From Gardnerella vaginalis (GTDB lineage: Bacteria; Actinomycetota; Actinomycetes; Actinomycetales; Bifidobacteriaceae): a stretch of 64,000 nucleotides of DNA. The translations under genes and the position numbers were made by a program. The notes under the pieces are model-generated. The model searched no databases, was not told the DNA's origin, and was given only the letters and a program-made list of their open reading frames with translations. Shown here in pieces: positions 28,762 to 45,726 of the stretch (the stretch's first letter is position 1; each line of letters begins with the position of its first letter). Where the stretch lies: the NCBI RefSeq assembly GCF_040427915.1, contig NZ_JBETXJ010000002.1, forward strand, positions 1,240,001-1,304,000. The letters are read 5' to 3'.

Positions 28762-28762
28762 A

Positions 28763-30630: not shown

Positions 30631-30659
30631 TTTACAAATATGCTCTTACGTGCTATTAT
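30631..30659 (+). promoter_or_regulatory. tet(M) promoter
   Basis: TTTACA (30631-30636) and TATTAT (30654-30659) are separated by 17 bases. This matches the layout of the Tn916 Ptet region, preceding the attenuated leader. Confidence 0.75.
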
Positions 30660-30835
30660 TTAAGTATCTATTTAAAAGGAGTTAATAAATATGCGGCAAG
30701 GTATTCTTAAATAAACTGTCAATTTGATAGTGGGAACAAATAATTGGATGTCCTTTTTTAGGAGGGCTTAGTTTTTTGTACCCAGTTTAAGAATACCTTT
30801 ATCATGTGATTCTAAAGTATCCAGAGAATATCTGT

Positions 30836-30922
30836 ATGCTTTGTATACCTATGGTTATGCATAAAAATCCCAGTGATAAAAGTATTTATCACTGGGATTT
30901 TTATGCCCTTTTGGGTTTTTGA
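30836..30922 (+). CDS. tet(M) leader peptide (Tn916 orf12)
   Basis: A 28-residue peptide, MLCIPMVMHKNPSDKS followed by IYHWDFYALLGF, nearly identical to Tn916 Orf12 as I remember it. Its coding region contains the attenuator hairpin. In the accepted model, slowed translation of this peptide under tetracycline changes pairing and lets transcription run into tet(M). Its TGA directly abuts an in-frame upstream ATG of tet(M). Confidence 0.88.
   Translation: MLCIPMVMHKNPSDKSIYHWDFYALLGF
30864..30902 (+). promoter_or_regulatory. tet(M) transcriptional attenuator hairpin
   Basis: AAAATCCCAGTGATAAA (30864-30880) pairs with TTTATCACTGGGATTTTT (30885-30902), a terminator-like hairpin inside the leader peptide gene. 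A second long-range pair, GGTATTCTTAAA near 30699 with TTTAAGAATACC near 30787, lies upstream. Confidence 0.85.
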
Positions 30923-30937
30923 ATGGAGGAAAATCAC

Positions 30938-32857
30938 ATGAAAATTATTAATATTGGAGTTTTAGCTCATGTTGATGCAGGAAAAACTACCTTAACAGAA
31001 AGCTTATTATATAACAGTGGAGCGATTACAGAATTAGGAAGCGTGGACAAAGGTACAACGAGGACGGATAATACGCTTTTAGAACGTCAGAGAGGAATTA
31101 CAATTCAGACAGGAATAACCTCTTTTCAGTGGGAAAATACGAAGGTGAACATCATAGACACGCCAGGACATATGGATTTCTTAGCAGAAGTATATCGTTC
31201 ATTATCAGTTTTAGATGGGGCAATTCTACTGATTTCTGCAAAAGATGGCGTACAAGCACAAACTCGTATATTATTTCATGCACTTAGGAAAATGGGGATT
31301 CCCACAATCTTTTTTATCAATAAGATTGACCAAAATGGAATTGATTTATCAACGGTTTATCAGGATATTAAAGAGAAACTTTCTGCCGAAATTGTAATCA
31401 AACAGAAGGTAGAACTGTATCCTAATATGTGTGTGACGAACTTTACCGAATCTGAACAATGGGATACGGTAATAGAGGGAAACGATGACCTTTTAGAGAA
31501 ATATATGTCCGGTAAATCATTAGAAGCATTGGAACTCGAACAAGAGGAAAGCATAAGATTTCAGAATTGTTCTCTGTTCCCTCTTTATCATGGAAGTGCA
31601 AAAAGTAATATAGGGATTGATAACCTTATAGAAGTGATTACGAATAAATTTTATTCATCAACACATCGAGGTCCGTCTGAACTTTGCGGAAATGTTTTCA
31701 AAATTGAATATACAAAAAAAAGACAACGTCTTGCATATATACGCCTTTATAGTGGAGTACTACATTTACGAGATTCGGTTAGAGTATCAGAAAAAGAAAA
31801 AATAAAAGTTACAGAAATGTATACTTCAATAAATGGTGAATTATGTAAGATTGATAGAGCTTATTCTGGAGAAATTGTTATTTTGCAAAATGAGTTTTTG
31901 AAGTTAAATAGTGTTCTTGGAGATACAAAACTATTGCCACAGAGAAAAAAGATTGAAAATCCGCACCCTCTACTACAAACAACTGTTGAACCGAGTAAAC
32001 CTGAACAGAGAGAAATGTTGCTTGATGCCCTTTTGGAAATCTCAGATAGTGATCCGCTTCTACGATATTACGTGGATTCTACGACACATGAAATTATACT
32101 TTCTTTCTTAGGGAAAGTACAAATGGAAGTGATTAGTGCACTGTTGCAAGAAAAGTATCATGTGGAGATAGAACTAAAAGAGCCTACAGTCATTTATATG
32201 GAGAGACCGTTAAAAAATGCAGAATATACCATTCACATCGAAGTGCCGCCAAATCCTTTCTGGGCTTCCATTGGTTTATCTGTATCACCGCTTCCGTTGG
32301 GAAGTGGAATGCAGTATGAGAGCTCGGTTTCTCTTGGATACTTAAATCAATCATTTCAAAATGCAGTTATGGAAGGGATACGCTATGGTTGCGAACAAGG
32401 ATTATATGGTTGGAATGTGACGGACTGTAAAATCTGTTTTAAGTATGGCTTATACTATAGCCCTGTTAGTACCCCAGCAGATTTTCGGATGCTTGCTCCT
32501 ATTGTATTGGAACAAGTCTTAAAAAAAGCTGGAACAGAATTGTTAGAGCCATATCTTAGTTTTAAAATTTATGCGCCACAGGAATATCTTTCACGAGCAT
32601 ACAACGATGCTCCTAAATATTGTGCGAACATCGTAGACACTCAATTGAAAAATAATGAGGTCATTCTTAGTGGAGAAATCCCTGCTCGGTGTATTCAAGA
32701 ATATCGTAGTGATTTAACTTTCTTTACAAATGGACGTAGTGTTTGTTTAACAGAGTTAAAAGGGTACCATGTTACTACCGGTGAACCTGTTTGCCAGCCC
32801 CGTCGTCCAAATAGTCGGATAGATAAAGTACGATATATGTTCAATAAAATAACTTAG
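30938..32857 (+). CDS. tet(M): Tetracycline ribosomal-protection protein Tet(M)
   Basis: A 639-residue EF-G-like GTPase that removes tetracycline from the ribosome. The P-loop is AHVDAGKTT (10-18), G3 is DTPGHMDF and G4 is NKID; domains II to V follow and end [17 protein letters not shown]. The length equals standard Tet(M). The start is ATG 30938, eleven bases after GGAGG; an in-frame ATG at 30923 would add five residues. It sits in a Tn916-derived context with orf12 leader and partial orf13 upstream, but no Tn916 int/xis downstream. It should confer tetracycline, doxycycline and minocycline resistance. The exact allele needs comparison with Tet(M)/(W)/(O) references. Confidence 0.95.
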
Positions 32858-32954
32858 TGTATTTTATGTTGTTATATAAATATGGTTTCTTGTTAAATAA
32901 GATGAAATATTTTTTAATAAAGATTTGAATTAAAGTGTAAAGGAGGAGATAGTT

Positions 32955-33143
32955 ATTATAAACTACAAGTGGATATTGTGTCCTGTATGTGGAAATAAAA
33001 CACGATTAAAGATAAGGGAAGATACTGAATTAAAAAAATTCCCCCTCTATTGTCCGAAATGCAGACAAGAAAATTTAATTGAAATAAAGCAGTTCAAAGT
33101 AACTGTGATTACAGAGCCAGACGCAAAGACGCAGAGCCGATAA
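32955..33143 (+). CDS. Small cysteine-rich zinc-ribbon (KTR-type) protein, probable ATT start
   Basis: A 62-residue protein reading NYKWILCPVCGNKTRLKI, then YCPKCRQENLIEIKQFKV and ending DAKTQSR. Two CPxC knuckles form a rubredoxin-like zinc ribbon; proteins like this (cysteine-rich KTR domain) follow tet genes in Firmicutes mobile elements. AGGAGGAG at 32941-32948 is a strong ribosome-binding site, but the codon at the right distance is ATT (32955) or ATA, with no ATG, GTG or TTG available. A perfect terminator overlaps its stop. The function is unknown. Confidence 0.75.
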   Translation: MINYKWILCPVCGNKTRLKIREDTELKKFPLYCPKCRQENLIEIKQFKVTVITEPDAKTQSR

Positions 33144-33179
33144 AATGAGATTAATACAATCTCATTTTATCGGCTCTTT
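33134..33179 (+). terminator. Strong bidirectional terminator after the tet(M) segment
   Basis: GAGCCGATAAAATGAGATT pairs perfectly with its complement ending at 33176 around a 5-base loop, followed by TTT. Confidence 0.9.
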
Positions 33180-33202
33180 CCGTTATGTATGGATTCTTTT
33201 AA

Positions 33203-33370
33203 TTAGTCTTCGATGTTTCTTGCTTCGTTGATACCGCTGGCTAAAGATTCCATTAAGGATAGTTCTTTGTCTGTAAAGCTATCCATGTATTTCTCTATCT
33301 GTAATCGTCGGGTGCTTTTTACCAAGTTATTAGCAGGTAAGAAAAATTCGGCAGTGTCAAGAATTTTGTG
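33203..33370 (-). pseudogene. 3' fragment of an unidentified mobile-element gene
   Basis: On the minus strand an open frame reads LHKILDTAEFFLPANNLVKS then RRLQIEKYMDSFTDKELSLM and ends NEARNIED-stop. It has the look of a Firmicutes conjugative-element accessory protein, but I cannot name it. No start codon or ribosome-binding site is present, and upstream the frame runs into the 33401 hairpin, so only the C-terminus remains. Confidence 0.5.
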
Positions 33371-33400
33371 TAAACTCCACTAGTTGTCAATCAAGCTATC

Positions 33401-33447
33401 AATCCAATAATATTTGCTTTTCTACGAAAAGCAAATATTATTGGATT
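33401..33447. repeat. Perfect 21-bp inverted repeat, possibly a diverged R-type end
   Basis: AATCCAATAATATTTGCTTTT (33401-33421, first 20 bases shown as AATCCAATAATATTTGCTTT) pairs perfectly with 33427-33447 around the loop CTACG. It is preceded by CAATCAAGCTATCAATCCAAT, close to the opening GAATCAAGCTATTAAGCCAA of the R repeats, which also continue into a hairpin with a TTTT..AAAA core. Confidence 0.7.
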
Positions 33448-33603
33448 TCGAATTTTTCGTGCAGGTCATAAGACGCTAATCCAAATCCTCTATGAATTCT
33501 TTCTTTAGATAATTCATTTTGTTCAATACAAAATACTCCTAGATAACGATTTAAACTATCCTCTGCTGGAAACTGTTCCTTTGCTTTTAATCGTTTTTTT
33601 AAT
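33439..33603 (-). pseudogene. 3' fragment of a second unidentified gene
   Basis: On the minus strand the frame reads RLKAKEQFPAEDSLNRYLGV, CIEQNELSKERIHRGFGLAS and ends LHEKFEIQ-stop, with its stop codon inside the 33401-33447 hairpin. No start is present: at about 33603 the sequence switches to the methyltransferase fragment. I do not recognise the family. Confidence 0.45.
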
Positions 33604-34923
33604 CAAAAAATCAGACATTTAGTTTCTGGTGAAGCGATTACTTTCGTTGGTCAGATGCCATTAGAAGGTGTCTTTTTAGAATTGCTGATTGAGCTTCTTA
33701 AGCCTGGAACAACATTAGCTTGCGTATTTCCTAAGACACATTTAATGGCGCGTGGTTTAGAAGCAAAAACTATAAGAAAATTATTATTAAATAAGTTTGG
33801 ACTCCGTCTGGTTTTTACATATCCAGGAGACGAAATTTTTGATGGTGTAACAAAAGATACTTGTGTCCTTGTTGGCAAAGTGAAAACTTCATCTGAGTAC
33901 ATAAAAGTTATTTCAAGTTATGACACTATTCCTAATATTGATATTCACAGATTTGTGCAAACTCTCTCAGATGATATGACATATAACTTTTCTCCAATGA
34001 TGCCAGGAATTGTTGCGAGAAAGATTTCAGTACAGGGAATGATTGCTGACATTGAGGATGGATGGAGAACACTTAATAGTGAAATGTCTGATGCAGTCGC
34101 CTTTGTAAAAGATAATTTTAAGAATTCAAGTCAATTTCTAGAGTTATCTATCTCTAATTACATAATTAAAAGAGGGCACGCGGGGAACGAGGGCGGCAGC
34201 GATATTATATTTTTTGACGCTCGTAGTGAATTATATAACAAATTTGAAAATAAAAATATCAGCTTTTCAATCGGAATGCGTAATGCTAAATTGGATACAA
34301 TAGATATTGGAACAGGAGATAACTATTTTCTGGATATTTCCAATAACTCTGACCAGGTCATAGATGCAATTATTGACACATATAACAAATTACCTGAAAG
34401 AAAAGGCAAACAGCAGCGTGGGAGAAAAACAAAGCAGGAATGGAAGAAGATATTAGCCAAAGAGAGCAAAGGAGAATTTGGCGCAAATTCTGTATTGATT
34501 CCAAGGGGCATCAGAGCAACGGGGAAAATTTATCTATCAAAAAATCCTGTATTTGTGTCTACAAATTTTGTTGTTTGTACGTTGCCTTCATTGAGCGAAG
34601 CAATCATGCTATCCACTTGGATGAGCACAATTTTTTATCAATTAATATGTGAAGTATCATCTAAAGATCAAGAGGGAATGAGAAAAATGGAGATTTGCGA
34701 TATAGAAAAAACATTCATTCCAGTTTTTGACAACATTAAAAAAGAAACGAAAGATGCGTTGTTTAAAGAGTATTCTTCAATAAGATTTTTAAAATTGATT
34801 GACCCACAAATACGACAAGTAGATAGAATATGGGCAAATGAATTGTTTGGAGAAAACTCAGACACTATGTTAGATAATGCACGAAGAATGCTTGAATATC
34901 TCGCAAAGAGAAGGAACGCTTGA
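33604..34923 (+). pseudogene. N-terminally truncated N6-adenine DNA methyltransferase-like protein
   Basis: The frame is open from 33601 and reads IRHLVSGEAITFVGQMPLEG, then ELLKPGTTLACVFPKTHLMA. This resembles the strand and helix after the NPPY motif of HsdM/type II gamma methyltransferases (LKPGGxxAxVLP). The remaining roughly 400 residues include a C-terminal helical region and a target-recognition-like section (RGHAGNEGGSDIIFFDARSE). The SAM-binding and NPPY motifs are missing. ATG 33655 could start a 422-residue polypeptide, but it would be catalytically dead. The family assignment is moderate. Confidence 0.55.
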
Positions 34924-34953
34924 TTTTTTATTCATTTAATGAATTAACTATTA

Positions 34954-34983
34954 TACTGCCCCATTTATTAGAATGGGGCAGTA
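34954..34983. terminator. Stem-loop after the methyltransferase fragment
   Basis: TACTGCCCCATT (34954-34965) pairs perfectly with AATGGGGCAGTA (34972-34983) over a 6-base loop. T-rich sequence is weak on both sides; it probably ends transcription between two converging fragments. Confidence 0.6.
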
Positions 34984-35026
34984 ATACTGAGTGTTATAAA
35001 CAATTAATAATAAATTTTGGCAGTAT

Positions 35027-35217
35027 TTATTCTTCTACGTTTTCCATGATGTCTTCCAGTTTACAGTCCAATGCTTCGCAAATTTTGATGAGAACTTCAG
35101 TGGTGACGTTTTCACCTTTGCCAAGTTTTGCAATAGTTGATGAGCTGATTTTTGCAGCATTTTGCAAATCAGCCCTGTTCATGTTTTTTATCTATTAGTA
35201 GTTTCCATAGTCGGTTA
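35027..35217 (-). pseudogene. XRE-family regulator, frameshifted and 5'-truncated
   Basis: The minus strand reads RLWKLLIDKK, then after a one-base shift MNRADLQNAAKISSSTIAKL and GENVTTEVLIKICEALDCKL, ending EDIMENVEE. This is the small Firmicutes XRE regulator that normally begins about ten residues before RLWKLLIDKK. An extra C at about 35184 separates the two frames, and the 5' end is cut where the recombinase remnant begins at 35218. Translation from ATG 35183 would give an incomplete HTH. Confidence 0.7.
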
Positions 35218-35298
35218 AGAAAATAAAAATTTACGAGGACAGGTTCAGCGTAACTTTTAAATCAGAGATTAGTGTGAATATTGAAAGGGCATCGTAAA
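35218..35298 (+). pseudogene. Last 26 codons of a serine recombinase (duplicate)
   Basis: Reads KKIKIYEDRFSVTFKSEISV then NIERAS-stop, differing from the end of the 29063-29851 remnant by three conservative residues. With the following terminator (35337-35373) and R2 it forms a 289-bp direct duplicate of 29771-30063. Confidence 0.88.
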
Positions 35299-35373
35299 AG
35301 CCAAAAGAATGTGAGCGTTTGAAATGTTACAAAAGTCAGCCTAGGGGGGGGGATCATCTCTAGGCTGTTTTTT

Positions 35374-35506
35374 ATGCTCAAGAATCAAGCTATTAAGCCA
35401 ATCTTAAACCTTTTAACGATAGCCTTTCCTATCGTTAAAAAGTGCACCCACTATCCATAGTGTGCACTCAAAAAAGTGTAGTTATACTTGGAGTTCTCTC
35501 AATCCA
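35374..35506 (+). repeat. R-type repeat, copy R2
   Basis: AAGAATCAAGCTATTAAGCC, the TTTTAACGATAG / CTATCGTTAAAA hairpin, the GTGCACCCACTATCCATAGT dyad, ACTCAAAAAAGTGTAG and the terminal TTCTCTCAATCCA. Homology to the other copies ends at 35506; L1 begins 10 bases later. Confidence 0.88.
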
Positions 35507-35516
35507 CGTCGAGAGT

Positions 35517-35735
35517 GTCGTATTGATGTCAAAGGCTTAATAGGTGGGTGCAAATTTGCCCTTGTGTAGCAAGGCTTAGCGAGGGCTATCGTTAAAAGGT
35601 TTAATGTGCGGCGGCTTTAAGCTGGGTTCTCGTGATTTTTGAGTGCAGTTTGGCTGTTTGAGGGAAGATGTCGACGCTCTAGGGTTGAGTGCACAGGATG
35701 TTAACGTTAAAAGGTGCACACACTTTGCACCCACC
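35517..35735 (+). repeat. L-type repeat, copy L1
   Basis: Landmarks in order: GTCGTATTGATGTCAA, AGGTGGGTGCA, CCCTTGTGTAGCA, GGGCTATCGTTAAAAGGTTT, GAGTGCAGTTTGGCTGTTTG, CGCTCTAGGGTTGAGTGCAC, GTTAACGTTAAAAGGTGCAC, ACTTTGCACCCACC. The same order is found in L3 and L4. It contains no convincing coding region. Confidence 0.85.
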
Positions 35736-35822
35736 CTGTGAAGTGGGAAAATATAGCTCAAAAGGTAAAATGAAACCTGATTATTAGTATGTGCACGAGG
35801 AGGTGCTTAAGGAATGGATAAT
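35736..35822 (+). promoter_or_regulatory. Shared leader with ribosome-binding site and start codon, copy 1
   Basis: CTGTGAAGTGG through TATGTGCACGAGGAGG to AAGGAATGGATAA. The copy at 41997-42083 is nearly identical up to and including the first codons ATG GAT AA, after which the two downstream genes are unrelated. Confidence 0.8.
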
Positions 35823-36407
35823 AAGAAGTTTATCGCAGAGACGAAAGATGTTCGTTTAACGGTGAAACGTGCTGATACTTTTGGCGTGAGCTTTGTTAAC
35901 TGTGAACAAGATATGTTGAGGGTTGAGGAAGCGCAAAATGTTATAAGGCTTATTCAAACTAAAAAAGTCTCAGCTTCGAATTGGCTGAGGTGGTTTACTC
36001 AGGGTATGCCTGAAATTGTTGTGAGTTTGCCACATGATGTGGAATTTTGTGAGGTTGAATCTGATTCTAATCAAGTGCTCATCACGGATATTGAGATTGG
36101 TAAGCTTTATGTAGAAGTGAACAATGGCAAGGTAGAAGTTGTTAATTTGAAGGCGGATGATGTCTTTCTTAAATGTTATAATGGGTCGGCTTCAGCAACA
36201 AACGTAGAAGTAACTCATGTTTGTACGCTTGATACGTTAAATGGCATGAGTATTTTAGAAGGAACAATCACCAAGGATGCAAGCCTTGAAGTAGATTGTG
36301 AGAATGGTGTCACCGAGGTTTCAGATAAGAAGAAGGTAAATTGTAAAAACGATGGATTTGCGCATTACATGGTGCACTGTCTTAATGGGAAAGCTATTGC
36401 GAAGTAG
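35814..36407 (+). CDS. DUF4097-like beta-helical protein, copy 1 (full length)
   Basis: A 197-residue protein of the DUF4097 (adhesin-like) type, inferred from its repeat pattern. After an N-terminal alpha/beta part (residues 1-75) come about five beta-helix-like coils, each near 18-22 residues, marked by NG turns (VEVNNGKVEV, CYNGSASATNV, TLNGMSILEG, CENGVTEV, CLNGKAIAK). There is no signal peptide or membrane helix, so it is probably cytoplasmic despite the family name. A truncated near-identical copy lies at 40935 and a diverged copy at 48648. It is expressed from the repeat-borne leader. Its function is unknown. Confidence 0.75.
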   Translation: MDNKKFIAETKDVRLTVKRADTFGVSFVNCEQDMLRVEEAQNVIRLIQTKKVSASNWLRWFTQGMPEIVVSLPHDVEFCEVESDSNQVLITDIEIGKLYVEVNNGKVEVVNLKADDVFLKCYNGSASATNVEVTHVCTLDTLNGMSILEGTITKDASLEVDCENGVTEVSDKKKVNCKNDGFAHYMVHCLNGKAIAK

Positions 36408-36498
36408 CAGACATATAGATCAAAAAAGAAGCAATAAAACTTGATATAAGTTGGAATTAGAGCGTATATAGACATACCGATAAAGGAGGAAGCCGTAT

Positions 36499-36783
36499 AT
36501 GCTCTATGTAAAATTTGATGATTTCGAAGATGTTAGCGTCATGGGAAATGAGAAAGATCATGGAATGTTTATTCCGATTAAGGATGGGAATGTGTATGCT
36601 GAGTGCGAACGGTGCGGTGTAGTTGAAAGGATCACCTCACCATGCGAATTCATTGCTAGCACATTTAGGTCAAGAGTGAACTTCAATGAAGGTTATGAAC
36701 TTTGCGAGAAGTGCTTGCAAGAGGTTGAGTTTGTTACTGTTGCTTTGAGAACTGGAAAATTACCTAATCGAGAATTGAAATAA
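36499..36783 (+). CDS. Small protein with two CxxC knuckles, function unknown
   Basis: A 94-residue protein with CERCG near residue 36 and CEKC near residue 72, likely binding one zinc ion. The rest is acidic with no recognised domain. The ATG has AAAGGAGGAAG upstream. It follows the DUF4097-like gene after 91 bases on the same strand and precedes the short L2 repeat. Residue C49 (SPCEF) is an additional cysteine that may or may not take part. Confidence 0.7.
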   Translation: MLYVKFDDFEDVSVMGNEKDHGMFIPIKDGNVYAECERCGVVERITSPCEFIASTFRSRVNFNEGYELCEKCLQEVEFVTVALRTGKLPNRELK

Positions 36784-36829
36784 CTGAAAAAGCAAAGCAG
36801 TGATAACCGTAGTAATACAGGAAAAACTA

Positions 36830-36859
36830 AACGTTAAAAGGTGCACACACTTTGCACCC
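36830..36859 (+). repeat. L-type repeat, short copy L2
   Basis: Only the distal box of the L repeat remains: ACGTTAAAAGGTGCACACAC followed by TTTGCACCC. It lies 33 bases before the ABC-F start, so the box marks a junction between modules. Confidence 0.8.
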
Positions 36860-36891
36860 GGGCGGTAAATGATAATTTAGGGAGGCGTTTT

Positions 36892-38370
36892 ATGTCAGTA
36901 ATTAAAATTGAAAACCTCACTTTCTCATATTATGGATATGTAAAACCCATATTTAAAAATGTATCGTTTTCCTTTGATACAAACTGGAAAACGGGATTGA
37001 TAGGAAGAAATGGAATCGGTAAATCAACTCTATTTAAGTTACTTTTAAATCAAGAAACTTATCAAGGTAAAATAAGCAAGGATGTTGAATTTATTAAATT
37101 TCCACCAAATATAAGCGATACTTCAAAATTAGGAATTGAGTTATATAAAGAACTAATATCAGATGATGAAGAATGGAAGTTATTTAGAGAACTCAGTTTG
37201 CTAAATGTAGATGAGAACCTTGTTTACAGAGAGTTTGAAACGCTTTCTAAAGGGGAACAAACAAAAATCCTTTTAGCTATTTTGTTTACAAGAGAAGATG
37301 GCTTTTTACTTATTGATGAACCAACAAACCATTTAGATATGGACGGAAGAAAAATTGTAAGTGAATATCTGAAAAGTAAAAAAGGATTTTTGCTTATATC
37401 TCATGATAGAGATTTTTTAGATGGTTGTATCAATCATGTTATTTCTATTAACAGGAATTCTATTGATGTCCAATCGGGAAATTTTACATCATGGTATGAA
37501 AACAAAGTGATGAAAGACCAATTTGAAATTAGTCAAAATGAGAGATTAAGAAAAGATATTAAACGATTAAAAGAGTCTGCAAGACAAAGTCAAATTTGGT
37601 CTGATAAAATTGAAAATACTAAAAATGGTGTAAAAGTATCAGGTGTAAAACCAGACAAAGGACATATAGGTCATCAATCAGCCAAGATGATGAAAAAATC
37701 TAAGAATTTGGAGAATAGACAAAACAAGGCAATAGAAGAAAAACAGAGTTTACTAAAAGATATCGAAACAAAGGAAAGTCTATTATTGCATCCATTACAT
37801 CATCATAAAAATCCTCTAATATCGGTTAGCAATTTATCATCATGCTATGGAGAGAGACAGATCCTAAATAATGTAAGTTTCGAGATAAAGCAAGGCGACA
37901 TAGTGGCTATATATGGGGGTAATGGTAGCGGAAAATCAACCTTGATTAAAATTTTATTAGGTATAAATCACGAGTATACAGGTGAGATAAAATTAGCAGG
38001 TAATTTAAAAATCTCGTATATTCCTCAAGACACATCTAATTTAACAGGTAGCCTAAATGAATATATTCACAAGCAAGATGTTGATGAAACATTGTGTAAA
38101 ACAATTCTAAGAAAATTAGATTTTTCAAGAGAATTATTTGAAATGGATATGAAGAATTATAGTGATGGACAAAAAAAGAAAGTTTTAATTGCTGTAAGTT
38201 TCTCAAAGCCAGCTCATATATTTGTTTGGGATGAACCACTGAATTATATAGATGTAATATCAAGAATACAGATTGAGGAAATTATAAAAGAAGCAAAGCC
38301 TACACTCATATTTGTGGAACACGATAAGCGATTTGTAGAAGATATCGCTAATAAAATAATACAATTTTAA
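36892..38370 (+). CDS. ABC-F ribosomal-protection protein, Lsa type
   Basis: A 492-residue protein with two ABC domains and no membrane segments. Domain 1 has Walker A GRNGIGKST (38-46), signature TLSKGEQTK and Walker B FLLIDEPTNHLD; domain 2 has YGGNGSGKST (about 342) and SDGQKKK. An interdomain linker of about 80 residues (antibiotic-resistance-domain arm) lies between. The length and N-terminus (DTNWKTGLIGRNG) fit Lsa proteins, most likely Lsa(C), which give lincosamide, streptogramin A and pleuromutilin resistance. GGGAGG precedes the ATG. The upstream in-frame GTG at 36841 is translated repeat (HTLCT) and is not used. The exact class needs a database comparison. Confidence 0.82.
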   Translation: MSVIKIENLTFSYYGYVKPIFKNVSFSFDTNWKTGLIGRNGIGKSTLFKLLLNQETYQGKISKDVEFIKFPPNISDTSKLGIELYKELISDDEEWKLFRELSLLNVDENLVYREFETLSKGEQTKILLAILFTREDGFLLIDEPTNHLDMDGRKIVSEYLKSKKGFLLISHDRDFLDGCINHVISINRNSIDVQSGNFTSWYENKVMKDQFEISQNERLRKDIKRLKESARQSQIWSDKIENTKNGVKVSGVKPDKGHIGHQSAKMMKKSKNLENRQNKAIEEKQSLLKDIETKESLLLHPLHHHKNPLISVSNLSSCYGERQILNNVSFEIKQGDIVAIYGGNGSGKSTLIKILLGINHEYTGEIKLAGNLKISYIPQDTSNLTGSLNEYIHKQDVDETLCKTILRKLDFSRELFEMDMKNYSDGQKKKVLIAVSFSKPAHIFVWDEPLNYIDVISRIQIEEIIKEAKPTLIFVEHDKRFVEDIANKIIQF

Positions 38371-38514
38371 GTAAAATCCAAATCCCAGTTTGTAGTGCCT
38401 TAGACTTTTATCATCATACGACATTCCCCTTGTCAGCTTCTTTCCTGCAACGAACGTTAAGGCTCTTTTTTGATGCATGGTTATCATCAGGGTAGTCTTG
38501 AAACATGTGAGACT

Positions 38515-38730
38515 GTCGTATTGATGTCAAGGGCTGATTAGGTGGGTGCATTTTTGCCCTTGTGTAGCAGGGGTTTGCGAGGGCTATCGTTAAAAGGTTT
38601 AATGCGTGCCTGTTCTAATCTGAGTTCTCGCGGTTTTTGAGACCAGTTTGGCTGTTTGAGGGAACATGTCTACGCTCTAGTGTCGAGTGCACAGGATGTT
38701 AACGTTAAAAAGTGCACACACTTTGCACCC
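38515..38730 (+). repeat. L-type repeat, copy L3
   Basis: All L landmarks are present, from GTCGTATTGATGTCAA to AACGTTAAAAAGTGCACACA and CTTTGCACCC. It directly precedes the CadD-type gene. The 38371-38514 gap before it shows no gene. Confidence 0.88.
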
Positions 38731-38764
38731 CCTTGTCTAAAAAATTTAACATTTTGAAAGGAGG

Positions 38765-39380
<616 letters not shown>

Positions 39381-39487
39381 ATTCATTTCCTTCCCTTTAT
39401 CTGCTATTTTTATGTTCAAACTCAAACGAGAAAATAAGTGGTGCTTCCCACCGTCACGGCGCTTCACCGTGCTATCTGATGCAGGAG

Positions 39488-39793
39488 GCTGATTAGGTGG
39501 GTGCATTTTTGCCCTTGTGTAGCAGGGGTTTGTGAGGGCTATCGTTAAAAGGTTTAGCGTGTGGCGGCTTTAGGCTGGCTTGGTGTGGTTTTTGAGCGCA
39601 GTTTGGCTGTATGAGGGAACATGTCTACGCTCTGGGGTTGAGTGCACAGGATGTTAACGTACTTCGCTTGCGTTGAAAGCACACTGTGCTTTCAACTTTG
39701 AGCAAGCTCAGCGAATCGAAGTGCATTCGCGAATTATGTTTTAATCGCTCATGCAGGTCGATTCGCCACTTTGCACCCACCCTGTGAAGTGAG
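39488..39793 (+). repeat. L-type repeat, copy L4 with structured insert
   Basis: Starts at GGCTGATTAGGTGGGTGCA and ends in ACTTTGCACCCACCCTGTGA. Between AACGT and ACTTTGCACCC, where L1 and L3 have TAAAAGGTGCACAC, there is a 107-base palindrome-rich insert (39661-39767). No gene of its own follows directly. Confidence 0.88.
39661..39767. repeat. Palindrome-rich insert, copy 1
   Basis: GTTGAAAGCACA-C-TGTGCTTTCAAC (39672-39696) is a perfect 12-bp palindrome. Further pairs are GAGC/GCTC, TTCGCGAA and GCGAATCG/CGATTCGC, so a folded single strand could form several hairpins. A 105-base copy lies at 41878-41982. Confidence 0.85.
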
Positions 39794-39922
39794 GATATAC
39801 AGTATAGTTTGCGTAATTATTTATCACGCAAAAAACATGATAATAAAATTTATACAAGCAAAAAGAGATGTTACTCAAATGGCATAATTGTAAAAAGTTA
39901 CTTTATAACATTCTCCTATATC

Positions 39923-39952
39923 GTGGGGCTTAAATCTAAGCCCCACTTTTTA
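39923..39952 (+). terminator. Rho-independent terminator
   Basis: GTGGGGCTTA (39923-39932) pairs with TAAGCCCCAC (39937-39946), followed by TTTTTATATT. No complete gene lies immediately upstream; 39794-39922 holds only AT-rich sequence, probably a lost gene. Confidence 0.85.
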
Positions 39953-40001
39953 TATTAAAAACTATTTTTTCAAATAAATAAAAGTCAAAGACTTTACATA
40001 T

Positions 40002-40820
40002 TTAACGCTTATTCTTAGCTAAAATACCTGTTTTTAATATCATTCGTAAGCATGCACTGAACAAAAAAATACAAAACAATATATTGCATATAAAAGGTGA
40101 AATACTGCGCGCAGTTATTGCGCCTAAGTTTACAGTAAATGTCGCAAAAATACCGATAATAATTCCTTCAGTAAAATGAGTATAATGGTAACGAGCATTA
40201 GCAATACTACCACTTATAGCTGTAGGAAGCGTGACAAGCAAAGCAGTTCCTCTTGCCATAAGGTCTCCCATGCCGAGCAAAAGTTGCACGCATGGCACTA
40301 TAATTCCTCCGCCACCAACGCCTAAAATACCTGAAAAAATACCAGAAAAAACGCCTATAAATATAAGACATATAGCTTTTAAAAAACTAACATTAAAATC
40401 TACATTTCTTAACGGAATCCAAACTTGACTAGAACATATAACTAGTAATACAAAAAGTGTAAAACACCAAGGAAATATTTTTTTAGGCAAAATATGTGAA
40501 AAATATACCCCAATTTGTGATCCGAAAACTGAACCTATTATTAGAAAAAATGCTGATAAAAATGACACTTTGCCGTCTAAACCGTAAACAATGCTTCCAC
40601 AAAGCGACGTTATAATTATGGCAACAAGAGAAGTAGCAGTAGCATGACGCTGATCAAATTTCATAAAAACAGTTAATGCAGGAACTATCACAATTCCCCC
40701 ACCTACAGCGAACAATCCTGATAAAAAACCTGCTAATAGTCCAATGAAAACGATTAAAACAATATTATGGAAATTATATTTGGTTTTAAAAATATTTCTC
40801 AACATATATCTTTTCTTCAC
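40002..40820 (-). CDS. TauE/SafE (TSUP) family membrane exporter
   Basis: A 272-residue protein with about eight membrane segments and the internal repeat of the TSUP family: FAVGGGIVIVPAL near residue 38 and LGVGGGGIIVPCVQ near residue 167. TSUP proteins transport sulfite, sulfonates or related anions; the substrate here is unknown. It is on the minus strand, against its neighbours, with GAGGAGG before the start (40827-40833 region). It may have come with its own promoter in 40834-40934. Confidence 0.85.
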   Translation of the reverse strand: MKKRYMLRNIFKTKYNFHNIVLIVFIGLLAGFLSGLFAVGGGIVIVPALTVFMKFDQRHATATSLVAIIITSLCGSIVYGLDGKVSFLSAFFLIIGSVFGSQIGVYFSHILPKKIFPWCFTLFVLLVICSSQVWIPLRNVDFNVSFLKAICLIFIGVFSGIFSGILGVGGGGIIVPCVQLLLGMGDLMARGTALLVTLPTAISGSIANARYHYTHFTEGIIIGIFATFTVNLGAITARSISPFICNILFCIFLFSACLRMILKTGILAKNKR

Positions 40821-40934
40821 AAATTACCTCCTCGTACTTTATCCACTACTTTTACTATGTTATATGAAAAATAGAATATTTCCATATTAGTTCAATTGTA
40901 ATTTATGTATTTATTTATCTAATTAACGTAATTA

Positions 40935-41248
40935 ATGGGTAATAAGAAGTTTATCGCAGAGACGAAAGATGTTCGTTTAACGGTGAAACGCGCTGATACC
41001 TTTGGCGTGAGCTTTGTTAACTGTGAACAAGATATGTTGAGGGTTGAGGAAGCGCAAAATGTTATAAGGCTTATTCAAACTAAAAAAGTCTCAGCTTCGA
41101 ATTGGCTGAGGTGGTTTACTCAGGGTATGCCTGAAATTGTTGTGAGTTTGCCACATGATGTGGAATTTTGTGAGGTTGAATCTGATTCTAATCAAGTGCT
41201 CATCACGGATATTGAGATTGGTAAGCTTTATGTAGAAGTGAACAATGG
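40935..41248 (+). pseudogene. DUF4097-like protein, copy 2, 3'-truncated
   Basis: Nearly identical at DNA level to 35817-36126 (start of copy 1), with a few silent changes such as CGTGCT to CGCGCT. It stops matching exactly after GTGAACAATGGC; beyond this an unrelated FVSTGER tail ends at 41273. The start region is ATGGGTAATAAG instead of ATGGATAATAAG, and the repeat leader is absent upstream. About 105 residues of N-terminal sequence remain without the beta-helix coils, so it is unlikely to function. Confidence 0.85.
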
Positions 41249-41319
41249 CTTTGTATCCACTGGAGAAAGATAAAATTCATATTTAATGAAATTGACAATC
41301 AGGCCTTATGGAGGGTTTT

Positions 41320-41811
41320 ATGGCTGAGATTTGGGATGCGTATGATAAAGAATTTAATAAATTAAAGAATATTACATTAGTGAGAGGAGAACCAATTCCT
41401 GACGGCATGTATCATTTGGTGGGCGAAGTAATTGTTAAACATATAGATGGGACTTACCTTATTATGCAAAGAGATTTTGAAAAGAAATTCGGTGGAATGT
41501 GGGAGTTGACAGCAGGTGGTTCTGCATTGCAATATGAAACACCATTAGAATGTGCAGTAAGAGAATTAAAAGAAGAAACAGGTATTGAAGCTTCAAAAAT
41601 TATGGAGATCGGAAGATTTATGCAGGATGTTTACCACTCTCTTTATGTTGAATATCTATGCGTAACCGATTGTAAGAAAAATGCAATTGCTCTTCAAAAA
41701 GGAGAAACGGTTAATTATAAGTGGGTAGATAAAAAGAGCCTTTTGGAAATGAGCCAAGACGAGTTAGTATCATCAAGGGCAATCAAACTTATTAAAACAG
41801 TAGATATATAA
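41320..41811 (+). CDS. Nudix hydrolase
   Basis: A 163-residue Nudix protein. The box GGSALQYETPLECAVRELKE then ETG (66-88) matches the G-x5-E-x7-R-E-x2-E-E pattern with all catalytic glutamates. GGMWELTAGG is typical of the MutT/IPP-isomerase-like branch acting on nucleoside diphosphate-linked substrates; the substrate is unknown. I choose ATG 41320 with GGAGG five bases upstream, rather than ATG 41308. It follows the truncated DUF4097 copy and precedes L5. Confidence 0.87.
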   Translation: MAEIWDAYDKEFNKLKNITLVRGEPIPDGMYHLVGEVIVKHIDGTYLIMQRDFEKKFGGMWELTAGGSALQYETPLECAVRELKEETGIEASKIMEIGRFMQDVYHSLYVEYLCVTDCKKNAIALQKGETVNYKWVDKKSLLEMSQDELVSSRAIKLIKTVDI

Positions 41812-41815
41812 ATTC

Positions 41816-41996
41816 AAGTTTGGCTGTTTGAGGGAAGATATCAACGCTCTATGGTCGAGTGAACAGGATGTTAACGTACTTCGCTTGCGTTGAAAGCACA
41901 CTGTGCTTTCAACTTGAGCAAGCTCAGCGAATCGAAGTGCATTCGCGAATTATATTTAATCGCTCATGCAAGTCGATTCGCCACTTTGCACCCAGG
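41816..41996 (+). repeat. L-type repeat, copy L5 (5'-truncated, with structured insert)
   Basis: Begins within the L landmark AGTTTGGCTGTTTGAGGGA and continues through the CGCTCT and GTTAACGT boxes, the 105-base structured insert and ACTTTGCACCCAGG. The first half of the L repeat is missing. Confidence 0.87.
41878..41982. repeat. Palindrome-rich insert, copy 2
   Basis: Same element as at 39661-39767, with the 12-bp palindrome at 41889-41913. It is inserted at the same place in the L repeat, so it was present before the L copies were separated. Confidence 0.85.
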
Positions 41997-42083
41997 CTGT
42001 GAAGTGGTAAAATATAGCTCAAAAGTTAAAATGAGGCCTGATTATTAGTATGTGCACGAGGAGGTTTTTAAGGAATGGATAAG
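41997..42083 (+). promoter_or_regulatory. Shared leader with ribosome-binding site and start codon, copy 2
   Basis: CTGTGAAGTGG through TATGTGCACGAGGAGG to AAGGAATGGATAA, nearly identical to 35736-35822. Here it starts a 59-residue membrane protein. Confidence 0.8.
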
Positions 42084-42254
42084 CTCGTTCGTTTTTGCCG
42101 TGAAGTAGCGACATTCGGCTTGACGGTTGCTTTAATCGCGATGCTGCTTGCCTTAATATGGGGTGGCACACTTGCTATTAGAGTTGGTTTTACCTCTTTT
42201 GTTATTGGTGTCACAGTGATCTCGCTTAAGACTGTCCTTCGAAAGACTGATTGA
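42075..42254 (+). CDS. Small two-helix membrane protein, function unknown
   Basis: A 59-residue protein. Residues 14-31 (FGLTVALIAMLLALIWGG) and 33-50 (LAIRVGFTSFVIGVTVIS) are hydrophobic, with basic ends (KLVRFCR, LKTVLRKTD). The layout, two short helices and positive termini, is compatible with a small membrane peptide, phage holin-like protein or toxin, but I recognise no family. Translation signals are supplied by the shared repeat leader (GAGGAGG and AAGGA before ATG 42075). The region after it, to 42407, holds AT-rich sequence with an inverted repeat (GTGACTATTACTGA / TCAGTAATAGTCAC, about 42296-42329) that may end transcription. Confidence 0.65.
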   Translation: MDKLVRFCREVATFGLTVALIAMLLALIWGGTLAIRVGFTSFVIGVTVISLKTVLRKTD

Positions 42255-42407
42255 ATTTTGTTTGGTTCAAGTCAATAGTTGAATATCTCACGTTGGGTGA
42301 CTATTACTGATCTCTGTCAGTAATAGTCACTTCTTTTTATGAATATTAAAGTCAGGCTCAATGTCCGTCCTGTTTAGCCGGTGATTAGTTAGGGTGATCG
42401 TTAAAAG

Positions 42408-42719
42408 ATTAACAACTGTATCAATGAAAATGCACGGAAATTGCAGAACCAGGATGAGTATGAGAAAAAATATGCGAGTCTAGTGAACAGGTTTAATACC
42501 GTAGAAGCAAGGCTTAAAGAAGTAAAAGCTAGCATTGTCGACAAGCAAGCAAGACGTGATGAGGTTGAATATTTTATTGATGGCTTGAAAAACAGGACTT
42601 GTTAACTGTGTTCTATGAAAACGTCTGACTTAGCATGGTTGACCATCTAACCGTGCATCAAGATGGAAAGGCTGATATTATCTTCCTTGATGGGAGTGTA
42701 ATGAAAGTAGACGAGTAAA
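42408..42719 (+). pseudogene. Second serine-recombinase 3' remnant, frameshifted
   Basis: Reads NENARKLQNQDEYEKKYASL, RLKEVKASIVDKQARRDEVE and FIDGLKNR, then after frame changes FYEN, MVDHLTVHQDGKADIIFLDG and VMKVDE-stop. This is the coiled-coil and C-terminus of a serine recombinase distinct from the one at 29063. It begins directly after a TCGTTAAAAG box (42398-42407), the same word found in the L and R repeats. At least two frameshifts are needed to restore it. Confidence 0.75.
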
Positions 42720-42984
42720 TAACAAATATACAATATATGAAGGCAAGTCAATATAGATTTTTTCTTGTATAATTAACTCAAGAAAAGTTAGCATAAAAGG
42801 TTGGCAAGCCATGAAAAAACTGACAAAATCCTTGACAGACAGACAGTGTAGTTCTGTCTCTTTTCACGTAGAATTTTTTAATTGGTAGAAATATATATCT
42901 GATGGATAGGTATGTGTTCCTGCCTATTTTATGCAATTTTTCAAAACAATAAAAAGAACATTATTAGATTAAAAAGGAGGATTT

Positions 42985-43206
42985 ATGAAAAATATGAAAA
43001 AATGCCCAAAGTGTGGGGGAAGTGAAATTATATTTGTGCCTGGATCTGCTGGGGCTTATGGGACTGGAAATAATGTTATGACTGGACATACAATTATGTC
43101 AGCAGTACCTGTTGATAGGTATATTTGCACTGCCTGTGGTTTTAGCGAGGAGTGGATTGACCTTGATAATATGGGTAAATTAAAAAAGAAATATGATGAG
43201 ATTTAA
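42985..43206 (+). CDS. Small zinc-ribbon protein
   Basis: A 73-residue protein with CPKCGG at residues 6-11 and CTACGF near residue 48, a typical zinc ribbon. Similar proteins are common in Firmicutes with no known role. AAAAAGGAGG precedes the ATG. The 42720-42984 region before it is AT-rich, with a possible 25-codon ORF at 42811 and an AGACAG/CTGTCT hairpin, but nothing firm. A clear terminator follows at 43251. Confidence 0.75.
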   Translation: MKNMKKCPKCGGSEIIFVPGSAGAYGTGNNVMTGHTIMSAVPVDRYICTACGFSEEWIDLDNMGKLKKKYDEI

Positions 43207-43250
43207 ATGAGAGTTACTTTTATATGAGGGTGGGATAATAGTTAAGACAG

Positions 43251-43281
43251 CAGGTCGAGGATTACAATCGACCTGTTTTTA
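43251..43281 (+). terminator. Rho-independent terminator after the zinc-ribbon gene
   Basis: CAGGTCGA (43251-43258) pairs with TCGACCTG (43268-43275), followed by TTTTTA. Confidence 0.88.
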
Positions 43282-43369
43282 TGTTTAAGGCACTTAGCTT
43301 TCAAGATATAATGAGTATTAGAAGATAAATTTGTAAAAGCTCATTTCAATAGATGAAGGAGGTGCTTTC

Positions 43370-44275
43370 ATGTCCAATTTAAACTCAAATTACACTAAGC
43401 AACTCATTGATGATTACTGTGTGCTAGATACCGAAACGACCGGCTTATCTGCTTATTATAATGAGATTATTGAGATTGGTATCTTAAAAGTTAGAAATAA
43501 TGAGATAGTAGACCGTTATGATCAGCTGGTTAAGCCGAGTACCGGAGTAGATGGTTTTATTACAGCATTAACAGGAATAACTAATGAAATGTTGGAGAGT
43601 ATGCCGTCTATCGCTGATGTGAAAACGGCTGTGCTTTCATTTATTGGTGAGGATATTATTCTTGGGCATAGTACTTCTTTTGATATGCGTTTTTTGAATG
43701 AGGGTTTTAAGGAACAATTGTCTAATCAGTATATGGATACGATGCAATTTGCTCGTAAACTGTATCCTGAGTTGAAGCATTACAGGCTTTCTGATTTAAC
43801 TGATTATTTGGGTTTGCATAATAATGAGCATCGTGCTTTAGTTGATTGTATTGCGACGAAAGAATTATATGATGCTGTTAAAACACGCATGGCTGAGAAG
43901 AATCTAGTAATTGAAGATTTATGGCCTGTTAGCGGAAGTCACGGTGGTAAAGGGATAGATATCAAAGCAATTAAGCCTGATGAAGTGGTTGTTGATGAAG
44001 ATGGATTTTTCTATAATCGGCACGTGGTTTTTACTGGTAAGCTTGAGAAAATGGTTCGCAAGGATGCTAAGCAGATTGTAGCGAATCTCGGCGGTGTCTT
44101 AGATAATAGTGTGACTAAGCAAACAAACTATCTGATACTTGGGGATAATGATTACAATGCAATTCTTAAAGGTGAGAAGTCATCAAAGCATAAGAAAGCA
44201 GAAAAGCTCAAGCTTGAGGGGCAAGATATAGAAATTATTGATGAGCGTACTTTCTATGATTTGTTAAATGAGTGA
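43370..44275 (+). CDS. DnaQ-like 3'-5' exonuclease with C-terminal BRCT domain
   Basis: A 301-residue protein. Residues 17-175 are a DEDDh exonuclease: DTETTG (20-25), GHSTSFDMRFL near 107, and EHRALVDC near 163 with the catalytic histidine and aspartate. Residues about 215-300 (FYNRHVVFTGKLEKMVRKDA and onwards, with LGGVLDNSVTKQTNYLILGD) are a BRCT domain as in NAD-dependent ligases. This fusion is common in Firmicutes and bifidobacterial mobile regions and likely acts in DNA repair or element maintenance. AAGGAGG precedes the ATG. It looks intact. Confidence 0.88.
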   Translation: MSNLNSNYTKQLIDDYCVLDTETTGLSAYYNEIIEIGILKVRNNEIVDRYDQLVKPSTGVDGFITALTGITNEMLESMPSIADVKTAVLSFIGEDIILGHSTSFDMRFLNEGFKEQLSNQYMDTMQFARKLYPELKHYRLSDLTDYLGLHNNEHRALVDCIATKELYDAVKTRMAEKNLVIEDLWPVSGSHGGKGIDIKAIKPDEVVVDEDGFFYNRHVVFTGKLEKMVRKDAKQIVANLGGVLDNSVTKQTNYLILGDNDYNAILKGEKSSKHKKAEKLKLEGQDIEIIDERTFYDLLNE

Positions 44276-44300
44276 AATTGGATGATTGAGAGGTAGTTAG

Positions 44301-44846
44301 GTGTCTAAAATAAATGTTGAAGGTTCAGATATCAGCATTATTGCCATTGGCAATAGAGATTATATTTCTTTAACGGATATGGTTAGAAATATTGATAACG
44401 GTTCTGCTTTGATTGAAAAGTGGCTTAGGAATAAGAATACAATAGAGTTTTTAGGTATTTGGGAAGAAATGTATAACACGAATTTTAATTCCACCGAATT
44501 CGAGGGAATTAAAAATGAAGCAGGACTTAACCGTTTTATATTATCTGTTAAGCAATGGGTGTAGAAATCAATTTTATTTATGCAAATGAAGCGGATATTC
44601 TTAATGTTTCTTTATTTGGAATAACAGCTAAAGAGTGGCGTGATGAAAATCCGGATTTAAAATGCAATATTAGAGATTATGCAGATATATCTCAGCTTGT
44701 TTGCCTTTCTAATCTTGAGAATCTTAATGCGGTATTTATAAATGAAGGTATGAGTCAATCTGAAAGATTGGAGAAATTAAAGGCAAATAGCTATTGAACA
44801 AATGAGGATACTGTCTGAAAGTGAATCAATTAAAAAATTGCAATAA
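44301..44846 (+). pseudogene. KilA-N domain protein with internal deletion and frameshifts
   Basis: The first frame (GTG 44301) holds the start of a KilA-N domain protein (ISLTDMVRNIDNGSALIEKW, LRNKNTIEFLGIWEE, FILSVKQWV) and stops at 44564. The next frame (44555-44797) reads INFIYANEADILNVSLFGIT, EWRDENPDL and SNLENLNAVFINEG, the C-terminal region of the same kind of protein. The roughly 60-70 residues normally between them are absent. A further shift near 44783 leads to QIAIEQMRIL and a stop at 44846. Phage-derived KilA-N proteins bind DNA; this copy is broken. Confidence 0.75.
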
Positions 44847-45164
44847 GCTGCGTCGTATCATTGGGAAACAGTAGCGGTGTCTCGGGAAGAGTTTCGTATA
44901 CCAGAAAACTATATGAATAAGGATGAATTGTATCTCTTTGCGTCACGAGATATTCTGGATTCTCACTATGATTTGTCTAAAGTCACTCTTGGAGATAAGC
45001 CCATCAAATTAGTTGACTCACAGTTTAATTTGCCTAGTTCAGGGTATAAAGCTTTATTTTTAGTTGGTAAATTTGATTTAAAAGACAAGCCAAGCTCTAA
45101 TGTTCTTAAAGTACCAGTACTTAATAAAATAGGTAATGTTGCTATAGGTTATAAGGAAAACTAG
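44847..45164 (+). pseudogene. 3' fragment of an unidentified gene
   Basis: Directly after the preceding stop, a 105-codon frame reads SYHWETVAVSREEFRIPENY, DELYLFASRDILDSHYDLSK and ends NVAIGYKEN. There is a GTG at 44877 but no convincing ribosome-binding site, and the reading frame begins inside a domain. I do not recognise the family. Confidence 0.45.
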
Positions 45165-45166
45165 TA

Positions 45167-45306
45167 ATATTTTTCACTCAAGAATCAAGCTATTAAGCCA
45201 ATCTCAAACTTTTTAACGATAGCTTTTTCTATCGTTAAAAGATGCACCCACTATCCATAGTGTGCACTCAAAAAAGTGTAGCTATACTACCCGTTCTCTC
45301 AATCCA
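45167..45306 (+). repeat. R-type repeat, copy R3
   Basis: AAGAATCAAGCTATTAAGCC, hairpin TTTTTAACGATAG / CTATCGTTAAAA, GATGCACCCACTATCCATAG, ACTCAAAAAAGTGTAG and TTCTCTCAATCCA; homology ends at 45306. Confidence 0.88.
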
Positions 45307-45726
45307 TACAGAATCGGTGGCGCTCCTTTGCAAATCGCACTTAAATAATATATCGTTTTGATGACACCTGCTTGCGTACAGTCTAGGTCCTGAATTTAAA
45401 AAGTTGCTTGTTGAATATTATGAGGGTGAAGATTTGCAGGTGATTGCTTCGTTTATGATGGATATTGTTGGAAGCATTAAACGAGCACTGATTGGCTATT
45501 TTGTTTGCTGCGTGCATTTTCTGCATAAGAAGATAAGTTAACCAATTTGAGCGTAATTTTAAAGTTGAACTTGAAATTTACGCCCATTATTAGAACACTG
45601 CGGCTTCAATCTCAAAGGTGAATTTTTAATTTGTTTCGTTTATAATAGAAACAACTATAAAAAACAATAAATTTATCGACTATAATCGAAATTGTAAGCA
45701 AAGCTGTAATCGAAAGGTGTGAGGAT
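45307..45726 (+). other. Gene remnants and promoter region before the AAA gene
   Basis: About 45388-45540 reads LGPEFKKLLVEYYEGEDLQV then IASFMMDIVGSIKRALIGYF in one frame with no start, a remnant I cannot name. A long imperfect hairpin from GCGTAA to TTACGC (45550-45582) may terminate it. At 45635-45715 there is TATAAT (45640 region) and repeated TAATCGAAA words, a likely promoter area for the gene at 45727. Confidence 0.4.

Follow-up and report, generated by a model that had tools for sequence, protein, structure and literature searches.

The stretch analysed here, called the window, comprises 64,000 nucleotides of Gardnerella vaginalis (contig NZ_JBETXJ010000002.1, positions 1,240,001 to 1,304,000) and belongs to a genome of 1.64 Mb, labelled G000 among the Gardnerella genomes (G labels) used for comparison. 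An island of about 24 kb (27488..51752, unstranded) lies between a HAD-family gene on one side and the transaldolase gene tal on the other, both named from their sequence with no family search. It carries cargo genes and two kinds of repeat, L and R, which an earlier note, made from the letters of the window alone, had proposed to be the left and right ends of one family of cargo-carrying elements; that note also suggested looking for variable cargo between the same ends, for unoccupied sites and for a linked recombinase. L and R are very probably the two attachment-site arms of a family of large serine recombinase (LSR) elements that insert mostly at the 3' end of the rRNA methyltransferase gene rumA/rlmD, and the window is a decayed array of such elements at a second chromosomal place, away from rumA. 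It contains the following arms:

35505..35810, plus strand: L1, full left arm; abuts R2 at the CA of 35505-35506, an R-CA-L junction of the phage attachment site (attP) type
36830..36859, plus strand: L2, the terminal 30 bases of L only
about 38503..38730, plus strand: L3, full left arm; preceded by an ABC-F-type right end, ..GGGTAGTCTTGAA
39486..39802, plus strand: L4, without the first 22 bases of L; insert of ~106 bases at L position 197
41817..42083, plus strand: L5, second half of L only; carries the insert of L4 and is followed by a 59-codon frame (42075-42254)
46946..47000, plus strand: remnant of L, 55 bases matching L positions 45-98 at 78%
29927..30063, plus strand: R1, right arm with the terminus ..CTCTCAATC-CA, continued directly by the C-terminal part of a Tn916 conjugation gene, presumably tcpC
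35370..35506, plus strand: R2, right arm
45170..45306, plus strand: R3, right arm; an alternative left sequence, L-alt (TACAGAATCGGTGGCGCTC..), starts at its CA
50811..50915, plus strand: R4, right arm in degenerate form, close to the island's right edge

The repeat family is genuine, as its words occur far above chance expectation: GGGCTATCGTTAAAAGGTTT, with up to three mismatches allowed, has eight copies in the window (0.00 expected) and GTTAACGTTAAAAGGTGCAC has four (0.01 expected). Only L1 and L3 are full-length copies of L. The earlier claim that every copy keeps both landmark words holds for these two (L3 with one mismatch) and fails for the others, L4 having the first word only, L2 the second only (two mismatches), the remnant the first (three mismatches) and L5 neither. 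A gene does stand directly behind L1, L2, L3 and L5, as had been claimed, the one behind L5 being the 59-codon frame, which was read by eye and had been described as a small membrane protein; the next gene after L4 is TauE/SafE, on the minus strand. The words said to be common to L and R in opposite orientation are also found: in R, the first word stands inverted and forms one half of an inverted repeat, the two halves being separated by 6 bases. The inserts split L4 into 39486-39660 and 39767-39802, and L5 into 41817-41877 and a part from 41982. They (39661-39766 and 41878-41981) are rich in palindromes, measure about 106 bases and replace about 13 bases of L. The same insert is present at G000:C2:1162413-1162777 and in Arcanobacterium (L362, contig 17296-17525), thus in several genomes and in some copies longer, and resembles a small mobile repeat lodged within L.

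L starts with CA-CGTCGAGA.., and its first ~39 bases, of which L1 carries the counterpart, re-create the 3' end of rumA/rlmD. Read in the rumA frame, CA-CGTCGAGACTGTCGTATTGATGTCAAAGGCTGATTAG at the start of L gives H-V-E-T-V-V-L-M-S-K-A-D-stop. The end of rumA is readable in 11 of 12 Gardnerella genomes (N at the place in G112); it runs into L in eight of them (G013, G021, G079, G096, G111, G130, G132 and G133) and into L-alt in three (G000, G030 and G131). Outside Gardnerella, a rumA homologue runs into L at the same codon in seven out of seven genomes, with an L DNA identity of 86-91%, while their RumA proteins share 23-37% identity with that of Gardnerella (local tblastn, in which some matches cover the C-terminal part only); the rumA frame of Megasphaera looks broken. 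Since L is so much alike behind RumA proteins that are so different, it belongs to the element and not to the host, and vertical descent of L at rumA is disfavoured by the same figures. Bifidobacterial outgroup rumA genes end in ..HHVET[VI].. with a native tail and without L in all 12 examined. Insertion at the rumA 3' end with the gene end restored is the rule, the array of the window between HAD and tal being the exception. Decayed coding sequence of a single gene was also considered for L and rejected, as only the first ~39 bases, the rumA tail, are coding. L-alt, found in the window at 45305-45345 and at the rumA ends of G000, G030 and G131, reads H-T-E-S-V-A-L-L-C-K-S and is either a displaced native tail or a second type of left arm. 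Further sequences resembling a RumA C-terminus stand at the CA of R at G132:C1:406374, G130:C1:1145517 and DNF00809 C19:161798 (for example, Q-V-E-T-V-A-L-L-T-R-E) and are possibly native tails or other left arms.

Unoccupied sites were found at both places of insertion. In Atopobium minutum DSM 20586, a 15.6-kb element spans from L to R, and the DNA past R completes rumA to ..HVETVALLTREKSA-stop; once the flanks are joined, the product ends as P0001 does, a protein 99% identical to it. Because P0001 has exactly this end, the empty rumA site exists in nature. The rumA frame is likewise carried on to a native end by the sequence past R-CA in Lachnospiraceae KA00044 and Coriobacteriales DNF00809. 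The second place is empty in G013, in which the HAD and tal genes are about 130 bases apart and the island is absent; it is occupied in G130, and the left part of the island is present in G096.

R, which ends ..CTCTCAATC-CA, adjoins a serine recombinase gene, here called LSRc, and so supplies the linked recombinase that had been looked for. R begins about 70-80 bases past the LSRc stop codon in G030, G132, G133 and Atopobium sp. Marseille-P4126, and LSRc is full-length in G030, G112, G132 and G133. The protein of G030 comprises a Resolvase, a Recombinase and a zinc ribbon domain, as does its LSRa, so that an LSR with catalytic, Recombinase and zinc ribbon domains stands beside the attachment arm. 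Two more recombinase genes lie upstream of LSRc in G030, G132 and G133. In A. minutum, R and L enclose a prophage-type element with LSR genes beside R. Among the draft genomes with L, a close LSRc match is lacking in DNF00809, KA00044 and Atopobium deltae (best-scoring matches at 32-34%), and Megasphaera gave none. In KA00044 (L279, 5566-6318), L is fused not to rumA but to the 3' end of what appears to be another serine recombinase gene.

Many of the genome assemblies are drafts whose contigs break within these repeats, and the counts of arms cover the stretches fetched around known copies. Within this scope, R-CA-L joints recur head-to-tail: the called start of L lies within four bases of 22 of the 49 R ends, and the terminal dinucleotide of R is CA in 43 of the 49 (TA, TC and CG in two each). 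The border was tested on arms that lack such a partner, namely 41 of 66 L copies without R before them and 24 of 49 R copies without an L-like start after them. The agreement of these L copies with their consensus, about 0.3-0.6 before the arm (through position -1), is 0.56-0.68 in the opening CAC and lies mostly at 0.8-0.98 from position 3 onward, a few wobble positions excepted. For the R copies, the values are mostly 0.75-1.0 as far as the A of CA, apart from four positions where they dip; past CA they are 0.42-0.96, raised by the 10 of the 24 that share L-alt. By these alignments, the border between conserved and variable sequence is at CA on both arms.

The family extends well beyond the window. 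A 300-base L query matches 4 of 59 relatives' genomes, G000 included, with several copies each, and of 112 genomes of the genus, 12 contain the word CGTTAAAARGTGCAC, each of them 1.5-1.8 Mb in size (reversed control: 0). In the GTDB species collection, a pattern of the L tail occurs in 32 stretches, 21 of which belong to Gardnerella or Bifidobacteriaceae strain NR021; the remaining 11 are from Arcanobacterium sp. S3PF19, Atopobium sp. Marseille-P4126, A. deltae, A. minutum, Coriobacteriales DNF00809, Lachnospiraceae KA00044 and Megasphaera hutchinsoni, of which we take the KA, DNF and Megasphaera strains to be vaginal isolates. A plasmid origin was rejected, as L and R have no match among 72,556 plasmid records. 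Cargo varies between the same ends: the DNA behind 64 of the 66 L copies (two were dropped as short or N-rich), compared over 650-1650 bases downstream at 75% identity over 250 bases, forms 33 clusters. From L to the next R there are 33 spans, 24 of them without another full L inside. Five of these 24 simple units match one of the recombinases LSRa-d, and 19 match none (also unfiltered at E 1e-3), thus having both attachment arms and no recombinase, as cis-mobilizable elements (CIMEs) do. A short frame without a Pfam match that resembles a serine recombinase C-terminus occurs in 5 of the 19; such frames were seen by eye behind L at window positions 42440-42615, G130:C1:814222-814485 and G013:C5:72493-72756. 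A clean array is G130:C1:813811-824948, with the order LSRc, R, L, exonuclease, R, L, TauE, R, L, CadD, R.

Single units recur in distant hosts. At rumA of KA00044, a 2.66-kb unit consists of L, an ABC-F gene, a RelB-family antitoxin gene and R, and the next L or R is found about 14 kb away. From L to R, the ABC-F unit of this Lachnospiraceae strain is 95.8% identical over 2375 bp to that of Coriobacteriales DNF00809. The ABC-F part with L is found in Arcanobacterium at 96.7% over 1851 bp, with no R found, and the unit in Atopobium P4126 at 97.5% over 2182 bp; there, a hybrid R/L site stands to the left of the unit, and no R was seen past it. The TauE unit of Megasphaera, in which L is present and no R was seen, is 95.3-98.5% identical to those of Gardnerella over 1065-1316 bp. 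The family is best read as phage-derived, with units that appear to have passed nearly unchanged between very distant bacteria. The proposal that L and R are the two ends of one family of cargo elements is borne out by the R-CA-L joints, the prophage-type element of A. minutum and the recombinase-less units flanked by both arms.

An autonomous relative is the Gardnerella phage vB_Gva_AB1 (MW387018), which, according to the available text of its announcement, was induced with mitomycin C and its circle checked by polymerase chain reaction and Sanger sequencing (PMC7996455). Its record runs from LSRc (96.8% identity) to R, two Ns, the later part of L and a shorter recombinase gene; a second, complete L follows further on, and then a transporter cargo. 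A small gene with a sub-threshold Recombinase match lies between two annotated recombinase genes. Outside the cargo, AB1 is mostly 86-96% identical to G030, with stretches at 68-70% and some gaps, and 90-97% identical to G133, with a gap at 8-10 kb. Its cargo at 41-50 kb has no match in the compared stretches, save for 1.1 kb in G133. Among 50,697 phage records, no other contains L/R DNA (blastn, E 1e-5). We infer that the recombinase of the L/R family is the LSR of the Gardnerella prophage group that includes AB1. The likeness consists of the two recombinase genes with a small gene between them, the identity of LSRc, R and L in the same place and cargo behind L; the difference is that the window keeps phage remnants only. 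In the available text of the announcement, the arms, the attachment site and the exchange of cargo are not described (PMC7996455).

The rest of the island in the window is made up as follows:

29066..29851, plus strand: C-terminal remnant of LSRc (residues 265-525), directly upstream of R1; 95% identity to LSRc of G030; Pfam Zn_ribbon_recom
30064..32857, plus strand: Tn916-type piece between two R ends, with the C-terminal part of a conjugation gene and tet(M)
35211..35297, plus strand: remnant of LSRc, final 28 codons, upstream of R2
35814..36783, plus strand: cargo, DUF4097 protein (Pfam) and 94-amino-acid protein (no Pfam match)
36892..38370, plus strand: cargo, ABC-F type ATPase (Pfam ABC_tran, two stretches)
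38769..39380, plus strand: cargo, CadD-type cadmium resistance transporter (Pfam Cad)
40002..40820, minus strand: cargo, TauE/SafE transporter; Megasphaera has the unit at 98.3% DNA identity over 1102 bp
40935..41811, plus strand: truncated DUF4097 copy and NUDIX hydrolase
43370..44275, plus strand: cargo, exonuclease (RNase_T) with BRCT domain; gene also in the arrays of G130, G131 and G133
45727..46935, plus strand: cargo, AAA_14/DUF4143 ATPase (Pfam)

The window holds no intact recombinase but only the C-terminal remnants of LSRc. The Tn916-type piece matches Enterococcus plasmid records at 100% over 30064-30680 and is annotated there beside tet(M). In E. faecalis pKUB3006-3, the partner gene of R1, annotated as a conjugal transfer protein, is native and reads GAGC-CA-ACTGG, which places the break at CA. 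Upstream of tet(M), window positions 30718-30882 match Rfam sRNA_0030 (Enterococcus sRNA 30). This is the only Rfam match in the window, and none falls on L or R at gathering thresholds, by which a structured RNA is ruled out for them; a tRNA target is likewise ruled out, as the window has no tRNA. The pair of DUF4097 and 94-amino-acid proteins recurs in G013, G079, G096, G111, G112, G130 and G133. Positions 40935-41273 are the start of a second DUF4097 gene, 96% identical to 35799-36098, which breaks off and passes into unrelated sequence ahead of the NUDIX gene.

The comparison itself shows where the elements end, that conservation stops at CA, that the target gene regains its end, that empty sites exist, that cargo varies and that an LSR is linked, and the following course of events would account for these findings. 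In the circular form, the arms would meet as R-CA-L (attP). The enzyme, presumably LSRc, would cut at CA and join the arms to a target, usually the 3' end of rumA/rlmD and sometimes another CA site, such as that in the Tn916 gene beside R1. With the copy of the last ~12 rumA codons in L, the gene inserted into would stay complete and a rumA-like junction would be re-made next to L. As this copy re-creates the junction, the site would be reusable, and elements could stack head-to-tail. The autonomous members would be AB1-type prophages, whose serine recombinase genes adjoin R and whose cargo, just behind L, can be exchanged. The L-cargo-R units without an LSR were probably moved in trans or along with a neighbouring prophage, and homologous recombination among copies probably adds to the shuffling.

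Several observations weigh against this account. CA is not universal, as 6 of the 49 R ends differ (TC may be an offset), and agreement at C and A is just 0.56 and 0.66 in the 41 L copies, for which one class shifted by a base is part of the cause. Several right ends other than R precede L, and one recombinase therefore does not explain all units; such ends recur as ..GGGTAGTCTTGAA, ..AAAGGCTCTACG, ..CCTAACAACCT and ..TTTCCACTTA, which suggests further recombinases using the same site. L-alt stands behind 10 of the 49 R ends and also ends rumA in the genome of the window. In AB1, the Ns sit at the R/L joint, where part of R and L positions 1-111 are missing, and its contigs were, by the available text, ordered on a bacterial reference (PMC7996455). 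G132 matches AB1 over 20.7-39.0 kb only (95-98%; ~35 kb further upstream were searched), so its prophage is partial or different from AB1. The genome of the window has no protein with a Resolvase domain (PF00239; 0 matches), and its arrays may be immobile now. Hybrid R/L sites suggest that homologous recombination also takes part.

Given these hybrid sites, the cargo could be shuffled mainly by homologous recombination between copies of L and R, the LSR accounting for old insertions only. Joints of this kind occur at G013:C6:17801 and G021:C42:110456, internally deleted copies of L at G000:C2:6558 and in L2 of the window, and on the left of the ABC-F unit of Atopobium P4126 a hybrid R/L site takes the place of a full L; the lack of a Resolvase-domain protein in the genome of the window points the same way. 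Yet the borders of units on the L side coincide at CA instead of being scattered within L, and the LSR-less unit at rumA of KA00044 has the native tail directly behind R, with the next L or R about 14 kb off. We consider homologous recombination unlikely as the main force. At the two hybrid sites (R front and L tail) and the internal deletion G000:C2:6558, the joint lies at TATCGTTAAAARGTGCAC. That this shared word is the core site of a separate, integron-like (tyrosine) recombinase which inserts cassettes behind L fits the inverted repeat of this word in R, the L ends and several cargo borders nearby and the joining of hybrid sites there, but in many copies similarity extends about 25 bases past the end of L (GTGAAGTGGG), leaving no sharp cut, whereas the border at CA beside a serine recombinase gene is sharp. 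We deem such a recombinase very improbable.

L could also be host DNA, the rumA 3' end and what lies downstream (the bacterial attachment site, attB, side), duplicated by repeated insertions, with R alone being mobile. Its start with rumA codons and the succession of rumA and L or L-alt in all 11 readable Gardnerella genomes agree with this, but the same L (86-91%) follows rumA in Coriobacteriia, Lachnospiraceae, Arcanobacterium and Megasphaera, whose rumA genes differ greatly, 55 of the 59 relatives' genomes lack L, and none of the 12 rumA tails inspected in the bifidobacterial outgroup contains it. Host duplication at attB is refuted as the main account, and made extremely improbable, by the identity of L across phyla. 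Within the preferred reading of L and R as arms of LSR elements, the recombinase-less units might tentatively be seen as a serine-recombinase counterpart of integrons, with units of ~1.2-7.6 kb moved in trans by phage recombinases, an idea that we hold possible and rather doubtful. If true, a cassette system at a gene end conserved across phyla would provide an exchangeable gene pool for one body site.

The bacteria of bacterial vaginosis span phyla, and the routes by which they exchange genes are little known. In the L/R family, units recognizable by their landing site and two arms share about 95-98% identity across Actinomycetota and Bacillota; among them are units that encode a transporter, an ABC-F protein and a RelB-type antitoxin. 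As a simple sequence handle, the arms make it possible to trace the genes on the move, the direction of transfer and the phage involved, and they permit a direct test of the movement of recombinase-less cassettes in trans. In the open PMC literature (titles and abstract starts, with most subscription papers outside), there is no description of these arrays and no paper joining Gardnerella, serine recombinase and prophage.

Among known systems, integrons exchange cassettes at a GTTRRRY crossover core, unlike the L/R family with its conservation border at CA. Composite islands of the staphylococcal cassette chromosome (SCC) also combine a serine recombinase, a restored 3' end of an rRNA methyltransferase gene and tandem cargo, including recombinase-less elements. 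In SCC, however, the gene is rlmH, the recombinases are Ccr and the elements are not known to be phage-borne; the L/R site is rumA/rlmD, so the arrays are not SCC. As for phages that integrate at rum, the streptococcal Phi-m46.1 uses the site of the L/R family, its 18-bp core GCATCACGTGGAGTGTGT lying at the same codons as the rumA-L junction; tandem arrays of recombinase-less units are not described for it or the other rum phages in the available text (PMC4288039). The phi-Ssu*_rum phages of S. suis carry relatives of LSRc at about 52%. In Dehalococcoides, serine-recombinase islands stand in tandem behind one gene, ssrA, each leaving a copy of the gene 3' end, and 15 of them without an integration module have been proposed to be cis-mobilizable, as far as the text is available (PMC3146451). 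They differ in their ssrA target, 20 bp repeat and CcrB-homologue recombinase, and neither a phage link nor cross-phylum identity is described in that text (PMC3146451). The architecture seen there is nonetheless similar to that of the L/R arrays, with tandem stacking, gene-end copies and units lacking an integration module. The array of the window belongs to this class of tandem recombinase-driven islands, being both SCC-like and CIME-like.

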